A stretch of 25,945 bases of DNA from a virus, in IMG/VR virus record IMGVR_UViG_3300032676_000168, positions 1-25,945 of that record; one strand, given 5' to 3'. Below, piece after piece: positions 1,179-6,067 of this stretch (positions are counted from its first letter, which is position 1; the number at the start of each line of letters is the position of its first letter). A program made the position numbers and the translations under genes. Below the pieces are notes generated by a model. It saw nothing but the letters and a program-made list of their open reading frames with translations. It made no database searches and was not told the origin of the DNA.

Positions 1179-1450
1179 CTAAAAAACATGACAAACCAAT
1201 AGAGCACAAAACAACAGGAAAGGGTAAAACATACAACCCTACTGAGAAAGGTGCTGGTATGACTGCAAAAGGAAGGGCAGAATACAATAAAAAGAATGGA
1301 TCAAACCTAAAGCCTCCTGCTCCAAACCCCAAAACAGAGAAAGATGCTGGTAGAAAGGCATCATTTTGTGCGCGGATGGAGGGAGTTGTAGCCAAAGCTA
1401 AAGGTCCTGCTGAAAGGGCTAAAGCATCACTTAAGAACTGGAACTGTTAA
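1175..1450 (+). CDS. conserved small basic phage protein, DUF6321-like
   Basis: The protein is 91 residues and strongly basic. It contains GAGMTAKGRAEYNKKNGSNLK at about residues 27-47 and a C-terminal part with ASFCARMEGV and KASLKNWNC. This GGAGMTAKG ... KSFCARM ... ALKRWNC arrangement matches, from memory, the DUF6321 proteins seen in many marine and freshwater phages, whose function is unknown. The family name should be treated as a recollection rather than a search result. Translation probably couples to the upstream gene through ATGA (1175-1178). Two cysteines, in FCARM and at the very C-terminus, are typical of these proteins and may bind metal or form a disulfide. Confidence 0.75.
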   Translation: MTKKHDKPIEHKTTGKGKTYNPTEKGAGMTAKGRAEYNKKNGSNLKPPAPNPKTEKDAGRKASFCARMEGVVAKAKGPAERAKASLKNWNC

Positions 1451-1451
1451 C

Positions 1452-1595
1452 ATGCCACTCAAAAAATCCACATCACCTAAAGCATTTAAAGAGAATATCA
1501 AGACTGAGGTAAAAGCAGGTAAGCCCATTAAACAGGCTGTTGCAATTGCCTACAGTGAAAAGAGAGAAGCTGAAAAAGCCAAGAAAAAGAAATGA
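1452..1595 (+). CDS. 47-residue Lys-rich protein (KAF..NI..E..AGKP.KQAVAIAYS type)
   Basis: The ATG at 1452 lies just after the preceding stop, and the stop TGA overlaps the next ATG (ATGA, 1592-1595). The product has KAFKENIKTEVKAGKPIKQA followed by VAIAYSEKREAEKAK and a poly-lysine end. I recognise the central pattern (a short helix, GKP, then QAVAIAYS) from many tiny phage and bacterial proteins of unknown function. It should form two helices. The conserved pattern and its place in a chain of overlapping starts and stops make it credible despite its length. No enzymatic role can be assigned. Confidence 0.7.
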   Translation: MPLKKSTSPKAFKENIKTEVKAGKPIKQAVAIAYSEKREAEKAKKKK

Positions 1596-1732
1596 AAGCT
1601 AGTCTAGCAGTCCATCTATTAATAGCACTTGGCTTTGATGAGCATTTGTTCATGAAATGGCAAGCAGGCAAAAACCCCAGCTATACCAAAAAAGGTACAG
1701 GCAGAAAACACCAACAAGGAAAGAAAAAATGA
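1592..1732 (+). CDS. 46-residue small basic protein
   Basis: The gene starts at the ATGA overlap with the upstream stop and ends in another ATGA overlap with the next gene. The N-terminal 20 residues (MKASLAVHLLIALGFDEHLF) form a moderately hydrophobic helix. The rest is basic: KWQAGKNPSYTKKGTGRKHQ, then a lysine run. I do not recognise it. The N-terminal helix is interrupted by His, Asp and Glu, so a membrane anchor is unlikely. The case for its reality rests on the unbroken chain of coupled starts and stops from 1017 to 1914, since the overlapping reading frame at 1657 has no better start. Confidence 0.5.
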   Translation: MKASLAVHLLIALGFDEHLFMKWQAGKNPSYTKKGTGRKHQQGKKK

Positions 1733-1914
1733 TATTTGAACATGAAATCCAAGATGTAAACTTAATAATTACTAGCCTTGAGCACAAAATCAGGGATATG
1801 CAAATATTAGTTCAGAAATTAATGGCAAAAGCTAGTGAACAAATGCCTGTTCAAAACCAATTAAATCCAGTAGCTGAGACACCAACAAATGCAAATCCAA
1901 CAGTACAAAGTTGA
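1729..1914 (+). CDS. 61-residue coiled-coil-like protein, unknown function
   Basis: The ATG at 1729 overlaps the upstream stop (ATGA). The same frame stays open back to an ATG at 1657, but that would overlap the upstream gene by 76 bases and add a very basic segment unlike the rest, so 1729 is preferred. Residues 1-40 (MIFEHEIQDVNLIITSLEHK and on) have heptad-like hydrophobic spacing and should form one amphipathic helix, perhaps a dimeric coiled coil. The remainder is Gln/Pro/Asn-rich and probably disordered. The last 26 bases overlap the ParB-domain gene in another frame. I cannot assign a function. Confidence 0.55.
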   Translation: MIFEHEIQDVNLIITSLEHKIRDMQILVQKLMAKASEQMPVQNQLNPVAETPTNANPTVQS

Positions 1915-2653
1915 AGACTTAATTCCTTACGTTAACAATTCAAGGAAACATTCAGACGAGCAAGTGGCCCAAATAGCTGCAAGCATTAAAGAGTTTGGGT
2001 GGACTAACCCGATACTAGTTGATGGGGAAAAAGGCATTATTTCTGGACATGGCCGTTTAATGGCTGCTCGAAAATTAAAAATGTCTGAAGTGCCGGTTAT
2101 TGAACTTACACATTTGACAGAAACACAAAAAAAAGCATTAATTATTGCGGACAATAAATTAGCGTTAAATGCGGACTGGGATAATGAATTACTTACAATT
2201 GAATTAAATGAATTACTTGCTGATGGTTTTGCATTAGATATTCTTGGTTTTAATCAGTTTGATTTAGATCAAATTTTTATGTCTGAGGAAGAATTAAAAG
2301 AAGATAATCCATATACAACTAATATTAATACACCTAGTTATGAACCAGTTGGTGAAAAGCCTTCATTAGATGAACTTTATGATGATGAAAAGGCAATGGA
2401 TTTAATAACTACAATTCAAGTTAGCAAATTAAGTAATAAAGAAAAGCAATTTTTAATGTCAGCAGCTTCTCGTCATATTGTATTTAATTACGAAAAAATA
2501 GCTAATTTTTATGCTCATTCATCTAAAGAATGTCAACAATTAATGGAAGATAGTGCATTAGTAATTATTGATTTTAATAAAGCTATTGAAAATGGTTTTG
2601 TTAAGTTAACAAATGAAATTAATGAAATGTTTGATATTGATGAAGATGAATAA
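1889..2653 (+). CDS. ParB-like N-terminal-domain protein with a conserved C-terminal module
   Basis: The protein is 254 residues. Residues 1-95 form a ParB/Srx-type domain: VEDLIPYVNNSRKHSDEQVA, then IKEFGWTNPILVDGEKGIISGHGRLMAARKL (GHGR is the ParB box II equivalent) and KKALIIADNKLALNADWD. Such domains bind DNA and nucleotide, and in phages they often precede a DNA methyltransferase domain. Here no methyltransferase motif follows. The C-terminal part (about 150-254) instead has NYEKIANFYAHSSKECQQLM and SALVIIDFNKAIENGF, a helical module I recall from other phage ParB proteins. GC content drops sharply inside the gene, near 2140. It is followed directly by the nucleotidyltransferase and glycosyltransferase genes, so a part in DNA modification, for example site recognition, is plausible but inferred. 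Confidence 0.8.
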   Translation: MQIQQYKVEDLIPYVNNSRKHSDEQVAQIAASIKEFGWTNPILVDGEKGIISGHGRLMAARKLKMSEVPVIELTHLTETQKKALIIADNKLALNADWDNELLTIELNELLADGFALDILGFNQFDLDQIFMSEEELKEDNPYTTNINTPSYEPVGEKPSLDELYDDEKAMDLITTIQVSKLSNKEKQFLMSAASRHIVFNYEKIANFYAHSSKECQQLMEDSALVIIDFNKAIENGFVKLTNEINEMFDIDEDE

Positions 2654-3599
2654 TGAATATACATTTGTTAGACATGGTCAAACTTTTTGGAATAAAAATG
2701 GAATTATGCATGGTCAATTTGATATTCCATTAAATTATACGGGAATCAAACAGGCAAAAGAAATTGCAAATGAGTTAAAGCATGAACATTTTGACTTGTG
2801 TTTATGTTCACCTTTAAAAAGAGCAAAATTAACGGCATATAGTATTTTGCAATATCATAGGAATACAAAGATTTTTTATGACAATAGATTAATGGAATTA
2901 AGTAAAGGATTATTAGAAGGGAAACATTTAAATAGTGAAAAACTACTAAAAACTGAAGATCAAAATATTCTTAAAAAGTTTTGCATTGAAAGCAAAAAGC
3001 ATTTTTATGCAAGAGTTAAAGAATTTATAGATGAAATAGAGAAAAAGTATAAAAATAAGAAAATTTTAATAGTTGCTCATAGTGGAACTATTAAAATGCT
3101 ATTTTTCTCATTTAATTTTCCAAAAACACAATTGCATAAAGCCTATTATGATCTTCATATTAAAAATTGTAAAGCATATAAATTAAACTCAATCAATTTA
3201 AAGGATGAAAAGATGAAGATTGGATTTTTCCCAATGGTCGCAGATATTTTACATTCTGGTCATGTACTATCTTTAGAAGAAGCTAAAAAGCATTGTGACT
3301 TTCTTATTGTAGGATTACATTGCAAACCAAATTATAAGAACCCTCAGCAGTCTATTTATGAGCGTTACATGCAACTTAGAGCTGTAAAATGGGTAGATGA
3401 AGTAATTCCTTATGAAAATATTGAAAAAGATGCAGATTTATTTGTTTCGCTTGATTATGATGTTTATTTTCTTGGGGAAGATCATAAAACTGATGATTGG
3501 GAACTTAAAGATAAAATTGAGCAACTGGAAAAAGAAATTGTTTATTTAAAACGTAAGCACAATTACAGTAGTAGCAAAATTAAAAATGAAAGTAAGTAA
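2646..3599 (+). CDS. bifunctional histidine phosphatase / TagD-like cytidylyltransferase
   Basis: This 317-residue protein has two domains. Residues 1-185 are a phosphoglycerate-mutase-type histidine phosphatase with RHGQT (9-13; phospho-accepting His10), SPLKRA (55-60), ELSKGLLEG (84-92) and the second catalytic His in VAHSGT (143-148). Residues 190-317 are a nucleotidyltransferase with HSGH (203-206), RYMQLRAVKWVDEVIPYE, FLGEDHK and YSSSKIK (307-313), closely following glycerol-3-phosphate cytidylyltransferase (TagD). Both active sites look intact. The pair could make a CDP-linked donor and remove a phosphate. The start is uncertain: in-frame ATGs occur at 2613, 2640 and 2646, and I chose the last because it overlaps the upstream gene least. 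An internal ATG at 3213 with a good ribosome site may also yield the second domain alone. Confidence 0.8.
   Translation: MNNEYTFVRHGQTFWNKNGIMHGQFDIPLNYTGIKQAKEIANELKHEHFDLCLCSPLKRAKLTAYSILQYHRNTKIFYDNRLMELSKGLLEGKHLNSEKLLKTEDQNILKKFCIESKKHFYARVKEFIDEIEKKYKNKKILIVAHSGTIKMLFFSFNFPKTQLHKAYYDLHIKNCKAYKLNSINLKDEKMKIGFFPMVADILHSGHVLSLEEAKKHCDFLIVGLHCKPNYKNPQQSIYERYMQLRAVKWVDEVIPYENIEKDADLFVSLDYDVYFLGEDHKTDDWELKDKIEQLEKEIVYLKRKHNYSSSKIKNESK
3201..3205 (+). promoter_or_regulatory. internal ribosome binding site before the cytidylyltransferase domain
   Basis: AAGGA lies 7 bases before ATG 3213, exactly at the domain boundary of the fusion gene. Starting there would give a complete 128-residue TagD-sized protein. 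It could be chance, since it is embedded in coding sequence (KDEK). Confidence 0.45.
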
Positions 3600-4446
3600 A
3601 AATTACTTAATTTTCATTCTGACTAATGGTCGGCCTGATAATGTTATTACCTATGCAACTTTACGAAAGTCAGGATATACTGGTCGTATTTTCTTGATCG
3701 TGGATGACGAAGATAAGACTAAAGCAGAATATAAAAAGAACTTTCCAGGTGAAGTTATAATTTTTAGTAAATCAGACTATGCTGGTAAGTTTGATATTAT
3801 GGACAATTTTGGTGGAAATCGTGTTATTGTATTTGCTAGAAATGCTTGTTATGATATAGCTAGAAAATTAGGTTTAGACTATTTCTTTGAATACGAAGAC
3901 GATTACACGCAGTTTCAATATAGATATGTAGATAAGGATTCATTAAAAGGGATACAAGTTAAAAATTTAGATCAAATTTTAGATGCAATTATTGATTGTT
4001 TAGATAAAACAAATGCTACGACCATCGCTTTTGCTCAAGGTGGGGATTTTATTGGTGGGGTTGGATCATTTAAAAACAATACTTTTAAACGTAAAGCAAT
4101 GAATAGTTTTGTATTCAAAGTAAATGACGACCCTAAAAATGACACAATATTTATTGGAAGAATGAATGATGATGTAAATACCTATTTGACACAAGGCAAA
4201 ATAGGCAAATTATTTTTTCAAATATCTAATATTTCATTAGTTCAATTAGCAACACAATCCAACTCGGGAGGTAATACAGAAGCCTATAAAGACTATGGAA
4301 CTTATGTAAAATCCTTTTATAGCGTAATAGCTTCACCAAGTTGTTGCAAAATAGACCTAATGGGAAGAATTAATAAAAGGTTACATCATAAAATTAATTG
4401 GAATCATGCTGTACCTAAAATACTTGACCAAAAGTTTAAAAAGTAA
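3586..4446 (+). CDS. TET-associated glycosyltransferase (TAGT)-like protein
   Basis: The protein is 286 residues and fits a GT-A type glycosyltransferase. It contains IFILTNGRPDNVITYATLRK, a second strand IFLIVDDEDKT, then NFGGNRVIVFARNACYDIAR and YFFEYEDDYTQFQYR, where EDD (104-106) would be the metal-binding acidic motif. Further on are IAFAQGGDFIGG (147-158), RMNDDVNTY (192-200) and QSNSGGNTEAYKD. I recognise this layout from phage proteins called TET-associated glycosyltransferases (TAGT), proposed to glycosylate oxidised DNA bases. No TET/JBP-type oxygenase is visible in the window. The gene overlaps the phosphatase/cytidylyltransferase gene by 14 bases, implying joint action. An alternative is glycosylation of a virion protein or a host surface sugar. 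Confidence 0.75.
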   Translation: MKVSKNYLIFILTNGRPDNVITYATLRKSGYTGRIFLIVDDEDKTKAEYKKNFPGEVIIFSKSDYAGKFDIMDNFGGNRVIVFARNACYDIARKLGLDYFFEYEDDYTQFQYRYVDKDSLKGIQVKNLDQILDAIIDCLDKTNATTIAFAQGGDFIGGVGSFKNNTFKRKAMNSFVFKVNDDPKNDTIFIGRMNDDVNTYLTQGKIGKLFFQISNISLVQLATQSNSGGNTEAYKDYGTYVKSFYSVIASPSCCKIDLMGRINKRLHHKINWNHAVPKILDQKFKK

Positions 4447-4452
4447 TAATAT
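4424..4452 (+). promoter_or_regulatory. candidate promoter for the packaging/head operon
   Basis: TTGACC (4424-4429, five of six) and TAATAT (4447-4452, four of six) are separated by 17 bp, ending shortly before the small terminase gene. It lies at the boundary where GC content rises again. It overlaps the end of the glycosyltransferase gene, and in AT-rich DNA a match of this quality can be chance. Confidence 0.4.
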
Positions 4453-4476
4453 ACAACTACATTTCCCCTCAATAAA

Positions 4477-4821
4477 ATGATAGAACATATACCCACTGAT
4501 GAGCAAAGAAGGTTAGTTGAATCAACTAGCGGATTAGGCTTGCCACATGAACAAATAGCCATTCTTGTAGGCATTGATGATAAAACCCTTAGAAAACATT
4601 ACAGAATAGAGCTTGATACGGGTAAGGCTAAGGCAAATGGCCAAATAGCTAAAACATTATTTAACAAAGCCATATCTGGTGACACAACATCATTAATTTG
4701 GTGGACAAAAGCACAAATGAGATGGTCAGAAACTCTAAAGCAGGAGGTTACTGGGCATGATGGTGAAGCATTGCAAGGTTTCCAAATAGTGTTTAAAAAT
4801 GTTGAATCTAGCTCAAGTTGA
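4477..4821 (+). CDS. terminase small subunit
   Basis: The 114-residue product is a typical size for a small terminase, the oligomeric ring that recognises phage DNA and regulates the packaging motor. Residues 8-50 (TDEQRRLVESTSGLGLPHEQ, then IAILVGIDDKTLRKHY) form a helix-turn-helix with the GLPHEQIA...DDKTLRKHYR pattern common to phage terminases and related regulators. The centre (KANGQIAKTLFNKAISGDTT) should be the helical oligomerisation part, ending with IWWTKAQMRWSE. It overlaps the large subunit gene by 23 bases, the usual terminase pair. There is no good Shine-Dalgarno before ATG 4477, which is unusual among its neighbours. Confidence 0.85.
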   Translation: MIEHIPTDEQRRLVESTSGLGLPHEQIAILVGIDDKTLRKHYRIELDTGKAKANGQIAKTLFNKAISGDTTSLIWWTKAQMRWSETLKQEVTGHDGEALQGFQIVFKNVESSSS

Positions 4822-6067
4822 ATTTCCTGTAAAACTGGAATGTCTGTTTAAAAAGAGCAGATATAAGGTTTTATGGGGAGGCAGGGGAGGAGCAAAGTCT
4901 TGGGGAATTGCTCGAGCTTTGCTTATCTTAGGCACAAAAAGCCCATTGCGCATATTATGTGCTCGAGAGTTTCAAACTTCAATCAAAGATTCAGTACACA
5001 AATTATTAAGTGACCAGGTGGTTGCGCTTGGTTTAACTGATTTTTACGAGGTAATTGACAGAACCATTAGGGGTAAAAACGGCACTGAGTTCAATTTTGT
5101 TGGGCTAAAAAACAATGTAGCAAACGTAAAATCATATGAAGGCATCGATATTTGTTGGGTGGAGGAAGCACAAACGGTAAGCTCTAGGTCTTGGGATGTG
5201 CTTGTGCCAACTATTCGCAAGGAAGGCTCAGAAATATGGATTAGTTTTAATCCTGAATTGGAATCGGATGCAACCTACCAGCGTTTTATATTGCATAAGC
5301 CTGAAAATGCTTTAATACAAAAGATTAATTGGTCAGATAATCCTTGGTTTCCTGAGACGCTAAACATGGAGCGTTTGACGTTAAAAAGTCGTGACCCAGA
5401 GGCATACAACACAGTTTGGGAAGGACTTTGCAGGCAGACTGTGGATGGAGCTGTATTTGCCAGAGAAATGCAAATGGCAGAGCTGGAGGAAAGAATCACT
5501 AAAGTCAGGTATGACCCTACCAAGCCAGTGCATGCTGTGTTTGACCTTGGCTGGGCAGATTCCACATCCATCTGGTTTGTCCAGTTCATAGCTCAGGAAA
5601 TCAGATTTATTAGGTACATAGAGGATAGTCAGCAGACTATGAGTTATTATCTGGCACTGATGCAAACCTTTGGATATGTCTATGACACACTCTGGTTACC
5701 ACATGATGCACAGAACAAAACACTGGCAGCTCAGGGCAGAACCATAGAAGAAATTGTCAGAAATTCAGGGTTCAAGACCAAAATAATCCCAAGAACTAGC
5801 ATTGTGGACTCTATTAATGCCTCCAGAACCATGTTCAGGAACTGCTTTTTTGATAGGGATAATTGCTATGATGGTTTGCAATGTCTCAGGCATTACAAGT
5901 ATGAAGTTGACCCAGAGACAAAGGCTTTTAGTAAAAACCCACTCCATGACCAGTATTCACATGGAGCTGATGCTTTTCGCATGGTTGCTTTAGGTGTTCA
6001 AGAGACTAGACCAAGAAGACCAAAGCAAGTAAACTATGCACCACCACAATCATGGATGGCACTATAA
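4799..6067 (+). CDS. terminase large subunit (packaging ATPase/nuclease)
   Basis: The 422-residue protein powers DNA packaging and cuts the concatemer. The ATPase part has Walker A GGRGGAKS (27-34), Walker B IDICWVEEA (116-124) and the coupling motif WISFNP near residue 150. The nuclease part has the first acidic motif FDLGWADST, a second in LPHDAQNK and a third in HDQYSHGADAFR near residue 390, the metal-binding acids of the RNase-H-like fold. The motifs match the PBSX/P22-type Terminase_3/6 group. All catalytic motifs look intact. Position after TerS and before portal is standard. The C-terminal RPRRPKQVNYAPPQSWMAL should be a portal- or TerS-contacting tail (inference). Confidence 0.93.
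   Translation: MLNLAQVEFPVKLECLFKKSRYKVLWGGRGGAKSWGIARALLILGTKSPLRILCAREFQTSIKDSVHKLLSDQVVALGLTDFYEVIDRTIRGKNGTEFNFVGLKNNVANVKSYEGIDICWVEEAQTVSSRSWDVLVPTIRKEGSEIWISFNPELESDATYQRFILHKPENALIQKINWSDNPWFPETLNMERLTLKSRDPEAYNTVWEGLCRQTVDGAVFAREMQMAELEERITKVRYDPTKPVHAVFDLGWADSTSIWFVQFIAQEIRFIRYIEDSQQTMSYYLALMQTFGYVYDTLWLPHDAQNKTLAAQGRTIEEIVRNSGFKTKIIPRTSIVDSINASRTMFRNCFFDRDNCYDGLQCLRHYKYEVDPETKAFSKNPLHDQYSHGADAFRMVALGVQETRPRRPKQVNYAPPQSWMAL

Follow-up and report, generated by a model that had tools for sequence, protein, structure and literature searches.

A putative phage DNA-modification cassette combining a TAGT-family glycosyltransferase, a conserved partner domain and a phosphatase-nucleotidyltransferase fusion

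Three overlapping genes in the 25.9-kb viral record fragment analysed here (the window) probably constitute a modular phage DNA-modification cassette. Judged from sequence and gene neighbourhood, it would occupy an interchangeable slot and combine a partner domain (TPD), a fusion protein that makes an NDP-linked donor, and a glycosyltransferase of the TET-associated (TAGT) family that acts on phage DNA; the phage's own genome is the likely target. The initial annotation had proposed a DNA-hypermodification cassette of this general kind. That proposal is strengthened considerably by the neighbourhood of the slot, with the role of ParB revised to that of a swap hinge.

In the proposed mechanism, the ParB domain would bring the complex to DNA, and the TPD would serve as a subunit needed by the TAGT, either for recognition of the DNA or acceptor or for folding and stabilization. 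The fusion would act on a sugar or polyol (bis)phosphate, stripping off one phosphate and coupling the one left to a nucleotide (probably CTP, possibly ATP), giving an NDP-linked donor. The TAGT would then place a sugar-like group on the phage DNA ahead of packaging and so protect it from restriction. Explanations of the TAGT family usually invoke TET or hydroxymethylase genes, which are missing in these genomes. A naturally glycosylated DNA base that has not been hydroxylated, or a donor other than a UDP-sugar, would be a novelty in DNA chemistry, useful for labelling and for explaining the evasion of restriction.

Gene layout and the pre-terminase slot

The three overlapping genes, reported to follow a series of small genes and to precede the terminase genes, are all present as ORFs on the + strand (Table 1), although the length of one overlap required amendment. 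The fusion probably starts at M12, the start used in many homologues, which shortens its overlap with parB from 41 to 8 nt; the start of the TAGT gene shares 14 nt with the end of the fusion gene, and an overlap between these two genes recurs in 50 of 56 distinct cases. The genes are real, intact and under purifying selection (dN/dS against relatives 0.02-0.13 in the comparisons that allowed a calculation, with dS close to or at saturation). GC content is 25% inside the cassette and about 41% around it, a drop that points to a recently imported block. The portal, coat and tail genes of the window are P22-like by profile matches, and the early small-gene run includes a GroES/Cpn10-like co-chaperonin gene (739-1017; phrog_3188, 1.9e-7).

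Table 1. Features of the cassette and its surroundings (window coordinates).
Feature	Position	Strand	Details
parB ORF	1889-2653	+	254 aa
ParB/Srx-fold N-terminal domain, aa 1-134	1889..2290	+	phrog_620 1.3e-66, phrog_498 3.5e-53, PADLOC MTase_II aa 1-137
Import junction	2250..2310		methyltransferase-type homology ends, GC falls
TPD, unnamed ~95-aa domain, C-terminal part of parB product	2315..2610	+	own profile
Phosphatase-nucleotidyltransferase fusion ORF	2613-3599	+	328 aa
Fusion gene, likely start 2646	2646..3599	+	phosphatase aa 18-191, TagD/RfaE-type nucleotidyltransferase aa 201-326
TAGT ORF	3586-4446	+	286 aa
Terminase small subunit gene	4477-4821	+	phrog_309 5e-14; slot landmark, terminase block 4477..6067
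Terminase large subunit gene	4799-6067	+	Terminase_3 1.3e-38; slot landmark

The N-terminal domain of the parB product belongs to the ParB/Srx fold by profiles and motif. The PHROG ParB matches are strong, phrog_498 being the family of DNA methyltransferases with ParB, and the Pfam ParB_N score of 26.0 bits lies just below the cut-off of 26.3. A GHGR motif agrees with the GxxR box, and the A8 profile matches Spo0J and Noc structures. No HTH domain was found among the Pfam matches of the protein, whose second conserved domain (residues ~143-240) corresponds to the TPD; it appears to lack the features of a chromosome or plasmid partition ParB, namely the HTH and the C-terminal dimer domain. The ParB domain is 74-84% identical to ParBs that are fused to N6_N4 methyltransferases or that precede Mom or TET.

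The occupants of the slot were surveyed with ParB residues 1-144 only, a query independent of the TAGT, with matches mostly stopping near residue 133. The 67 distinct loci retrieved belong to the phage lineage of the window and share the ParB N-domain just upstream of the terminase. An N6/N4 DNA methyltransferase, either behind ParB or fused to it, is found in 52 of them, an ABC-ATPase/GNAT protein in five, Mom in five, TAGT in three and TET/JBP in two; no locus was without an assigned occupant, and Pfam checks support the assignments. With known DNA modifiers in 59 of the 67 slots, the TAGT most likely targets DNA as well. The argument is one of guilt by association, but a strong one. By the same reasoning, unknown genes between ParB and terminase in these phages can be read as candidate DNA modifiers.

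Two types of occupant deserve separate mention. A Tet_JBP dioxygenase lies directly behind ParB in two records that have no TAGT (L375:1417-2268 and L390:2511-3368). The ABC/AAA ATPase and GNAT protein of 350-380 residues (L255:1844-2908, L265:682-1821 and L351:2463-3521) is a candidate for a new DNA-modifying enzyme.

Comparison with loci L335 and L336, relatives of the methyltransferase type, locates the boundary of the exchanged block. Up to ~2250, most 60-nt bins show about 72-82% DNA identity; the value falls to 62-63% in the following bin and is 43-52% beyond ~2310; over the same interval GC content shifts from 32-47% to 20-32%. The break in homology lies inside parB and coincides with the drop in GC, indicating that recombination within parB exchanged a DNA methyltransferase for the cassette. 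The ParB N-domain is the hinge of an interchangeable DNA-modification slot in front of the terminase.

The glycosyltransferase and its partner domain

The assignment of the third protein to the TAGT group is confirmed by its match to PF20691 (7.7e-35; 121.1 bits against a cut-off of 27.5). The family name, which refers to TET association, is misleading here; membership is defined by sequence and stands. The AlphaFold (AF2) model of the TAGT (pLDDT 83, pTM 0.85) has TarP, AvpGT and SpsA as Foldseek neighbours, at modest TM-scores. The modelled fold is clearly GT-A, and these neighbours are informative about fold only, not substrate; a sequence search against the PDB gave nothing useful. The metal motif is E104-D105-D106 (nt 3895-3903), in which D105 and D106 are kept in at least 99% of 169 TAGTs.

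The initial annotation had counted the ParB-type protein as a member of the cassette. The ParB fold is indeed present, but the constant partner of the TAGT is the separate C-terminal domain, the TPD, and not the ParB fold. Alignment of ParB homologues shows that many short genes preceding a TAGT hold only the C-terminal region of the window protein. With separate ParB and TPD profiles, 154 of 165 TAGT clusters have the TPD upstream, 131 of them as part of a ParB protein and 23 as a domain on its own. Of the 11 clusters that lack it, seven are additional copies in genomes with several TAGTs and one is truncated by the end of its contig, which leaves three genuine exceptions. In the ParB survey the TPD occurs in three of 78 ParBs, exactly the TAGT-type ones. 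An earlier count that made the ParB fold the constant partner (148 of 151 clusters) was discarded, as the full-length profile had also matched solo C-terminal domains.

The consensus of the TPD is K.FL..AA.RH.VF.Y.KIA..YAH...E.Q.LME.SALVIID...AI.NGYVKL. The solo protein that was scanned matched nothing in Pfam, and in PHROGs the domain matches only the tail of phrog_620. A conserved, unannotated domain can now be named as the partner of a large glycosyltransferase family. Since loci were gathered by TAGT, CTase (cytidylyltransferase), ParB and terminase searches, and the neighbourhood samples are thus drawn by homology, the TPD may also occur outside TAGT loci.

Scans of IMG/VR gave 80 loci for the fusion and 80 for the TAGT, and the cassette was found in dozens of related viral contigs. 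The order ParB, fusion, TAGT holds in nearly all window-type loci, the terminases of which range from near-identical to barely related; the cassette appears both conserved and mobile. The suggested tie between the nucleotidyltransferase and a TAGT-family glycosyltransferase was borne out by the neighbourhood survey, in which an intact TAGT adjoins 93 of 96 ORFs with both phosphatase and nucleotidyltransferase domains; the other three are accounted for by the end of a contig, a truncated TAGT and a damaged ORF. A nucleotide search of the cassette against isolate phages gave no match. Without a CTase, the ParB-TAGT combination precedes the terminase in phages of Salmonella, Lactobacillus and Nocardia and lies close to it in a haloarchaeal virus; it is also found in prophages of many phyla. 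Among 5,426 E. coli genomes, 905 carry the pair in prophages (at least 80% coverage; e.g. L175, L411); the annotation there calls the ParB gene ynaK and labels the TAGT gene hypothetical or GREB1-related, and the ynaK of ATCC 8739 is annotated as incomplete.

Two unusual arrangements were also observed. In a 115-kb phage (L124:5416-10840), five TAGT genes and a stand-alone cytidylyltransferase lie behind a TPD, an array that suggests stepwise building of an oligosaccharide. In a phage contig (L063:6952-10420), a Radical SAM protein and an ADP-ribosyltransferase-family gene lie beside ParB, a divergent TAGT and a CTase.

Donor and acceptor of the predicted reaction

The second protein, described at the outset as having intact phosphatase and cytidylyltransferase sites, does combine the two domains (Pfam His_Phos_1, 3.5e-37, and CTP_transf_like, 1.4e-14). 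In aligned full-length fusions, R20, H21, R70, E95 and H156 of the phosphatase are invariant, as are the HxGH motif (214-217; H214, G216 and H217), R314, S319 and S320 of the nucleotidyltransferase; all four motifs are found in 92 of 94 fusions. The AF2 model has a mean pLDDT of 84, and Foldseek relates the first domain to phosphoserine and alpha-ribazole phosphatases. The nucleotidyltransferase domain scores alike with the glycerol-phosphate and heptose-phosphate models, below threshold with both (TIGR01518, 55.6 bits, cut-off 165.4; TIGR02199, 52.2 bits, cut-off 181). Identification as a glycerol-phosphate enzyme (TagD) was rejected on that score, which is under the NCBIfam equivalog cut-off, although the active-site motifs are kept. 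The motif of these enzymes is common to those that use CTP and those that use ATP. A single ORF joining ParB, phosphatase and CTase (L044) was also rejected as a natural fusion; its RHG motif is missing, and a deletion or assembly fault is the most likely origin.

The TAGTs linked to a CTase form one clade (support 99). Of its 48 tree rows, 46 have a CTase nearby; one of the remaining rows comes from a truncated contig and the other from an array with a more distant CTase. E104 is present in 48 of 49 CTase-linked TAGTs and in only five of 120 unlinked ones, of which 113 have D104. The EDD motif, in place of DDD, and the link to the CTase fit a changed donor, and the coincidence of this clade with the EDD motif suggests that the fusion probably makes a dedicated donor. 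As both features belong largely to one clade, and hence to one evolutionary event, shared ancestry may account for their association.

The more distant CTases sit with epimerases, GDP-mannose dehydratases, aminotransferases and a HAD phosphatase. This sugar-nucleotide context favours an NDP-sugar, which is at least as likely as a CDP-linked polyol or aminoalcohol; given such general clusters, the donor could also serve something other than DNA. Phage AB434P2 (L132) has choline-kinase-like, cytidylyltransferase and thymidylate-synthase-family dUMP-hydroxymethylase-like genes in one run (1314-5582), together with two possible glycosyltransferase genes. The run is likely to be another hypermodification cluster and would represent a second, independent link of the CTase family to base hypermodification; its choline-kinase-like and dUMP-hydroxymethylase-like genes keep an aminoalcohol donor possible.

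Alternative roles can be imagined for these proteins. The fusion might salvage or detoxify a nucleotide, or counter a host signal, while the TAGT uses a host UDP-sugar. Histidine phosphatases are broad in substrate, and 120 of the 169 TAGT tree rows have no CTase nearby and must rely on a host donor; nevertheless, we regard this role as improbable, given that CTase linkage is almost confined to one TAGT clade with an altered metal motif, that the gene overlap is conserved and that the fusion is essentially never found away from a TAGT. Very little weight is given to the idea that the cassette glycosylates a virion protein, a host surface glycan or a teichoic-acid-like polymer, with ParB as an unrelated neighbour. 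The slot of sister phages holds methyltransferase, Mom or TET/JBP, and the TAGT-TPD/ParB combination occurs in phages of Proteobacteria, Bacillota, Actinomycetota and haloarchaea, whose envelopes have no common polymer. The similarity of the TAGT model to TarP and SpsA would suit such a target but, as discussed above, reflects the GT-A fold; the epimerases and dehydratases beside distant CTases would suit it too, as would the fact that TagD-type enzymes produce CDP-glycerol for wall teichoic acid. Glycosylation of phage DNA with a dedicated donor remains the preferred reading.

The acceptor was sought in 55 TAGT-bearing records (three records without a TAGT were left out), including five isolates from different hosts deposited as complete genomes, the haloarchaeal HHTV-2 among them. 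The window contains no base oxygenase, in agreement with the initial annotation, and Tet_JBP matched none of the 55 records, its positive control having worked. The thymidylate-synthase family (PF00303) was found in one of the 55, phage pv27, and in none with the fusion; it is absent, as is Tet_JBP, from the five complete isolates and from 49 viral TAGT records. 2OG-FeII_Oxy_3 was absent from the 23 TAGT records searched. C5 methyltransferases occur in two TAGT records of the first set and N6_N4 in one, and the annotated gene list of phage c5 holds no other candidate. The Lactobacillus phages c5 and phi jlb1 and the virus HHTV-2 are isolates that have ParB, TPD and TAGT but no hydroxymethylase. 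As no enzyme for a hydroxymethyl- or hydroxy-base was found, the acceptor is probably an unmodified base; by analogy with the slot methyltransferases and Mom, this is the simplest reading of the TPD-TAGT pair. Ordinary hydroxymethyl glycosylation with an unusual donor, on a 5-methyl or 5-hydroxymethyl pyrimidine supplied by the host or by a phage enzyme that escaped detection, is unlikely in view of these searches, even though pv27 has its thymidylate-synthase-family gene, the window record is only a fragment and, to our knowledge, every TAGT/T6-type enzyme characterised so far uses hydroxymethyl pyrimidines, or the sugars on them, as substrate. We tentatively raise a wider possibility, short of an expectation: TPD and TAGT could form a two-subunit glycosyltransferase that places sugar directly on a canonical base without hydroxylation, in bacterial and archaeal viruses alike, to which the clade of the window would add its own non-UDP donor, and hence a previously undescribed decoration of DNA.

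Comparison with known systems

TAGT enzymes and ParB-methyltransferase fusions are known kinds. No description of the exchange at the ParB hinge, of the TPD partner or of the donor-making fusion seems to exist in the literature searched, which did not reach all key older work. NTP binding is known for ParB folds, and DNA nicking for some of them (PMC12704722, PMC5512222); glycosyltransferases are unmentioned in the texts of these two surveys, of the ParB fold and of polyvalent proteins, respectively. Phage ParB-DNA methyltransferase fusions share the ParB domain and the pre-terminase slot with the window and differ in the catalytic part, which is replaced in the window by TPD, phosphatase-nucleotidyltransferase and TAGT. 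TagD and domain II of RfaE share the HxGH and RxxxxS(S/T) motifs with the fusion, whereas the window CTase falls well below both curated cut-offs and is fused to a histidine phosphatase.

The known DNA glucosyltransferase ggt of T6, a beta-glucosyl-HMC-alpha-glucosyltransferase (PMC13390438), matches PF20691 at 4.8e-11 and is a remote relative only. It and the TET-linked TAGTs have in common with the window TAGT the PF20691 domain and the transfer of sugar to phage DNA, predicted in our case (PMC13390438). However, T6 ggt has a dCMP hydroxymethylase next door, neither TPD nor CTase, and a DDD motif, in contrast to the window with no hydroxymethylase, a TPD, a donor enzyme and EDD. Its substrate, hydroxymethylcytosine that is already glucosylated, also counts against a close analogy.

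The occurrence of ParB next to a DNA carboxymethyltransferase has already been reported (PMC12783734). That carboxymethylcytosine system, CmoA/CmoX/CmoY, pairs a cofactor-making enzyme with a DNA-acting transferase, often together with ParBc, as the cassette is predicted to do (PMC12783734); its chemistry is carboxymethyl/glycyl, whereas that of the window cassette is predicted to be glycosyl.
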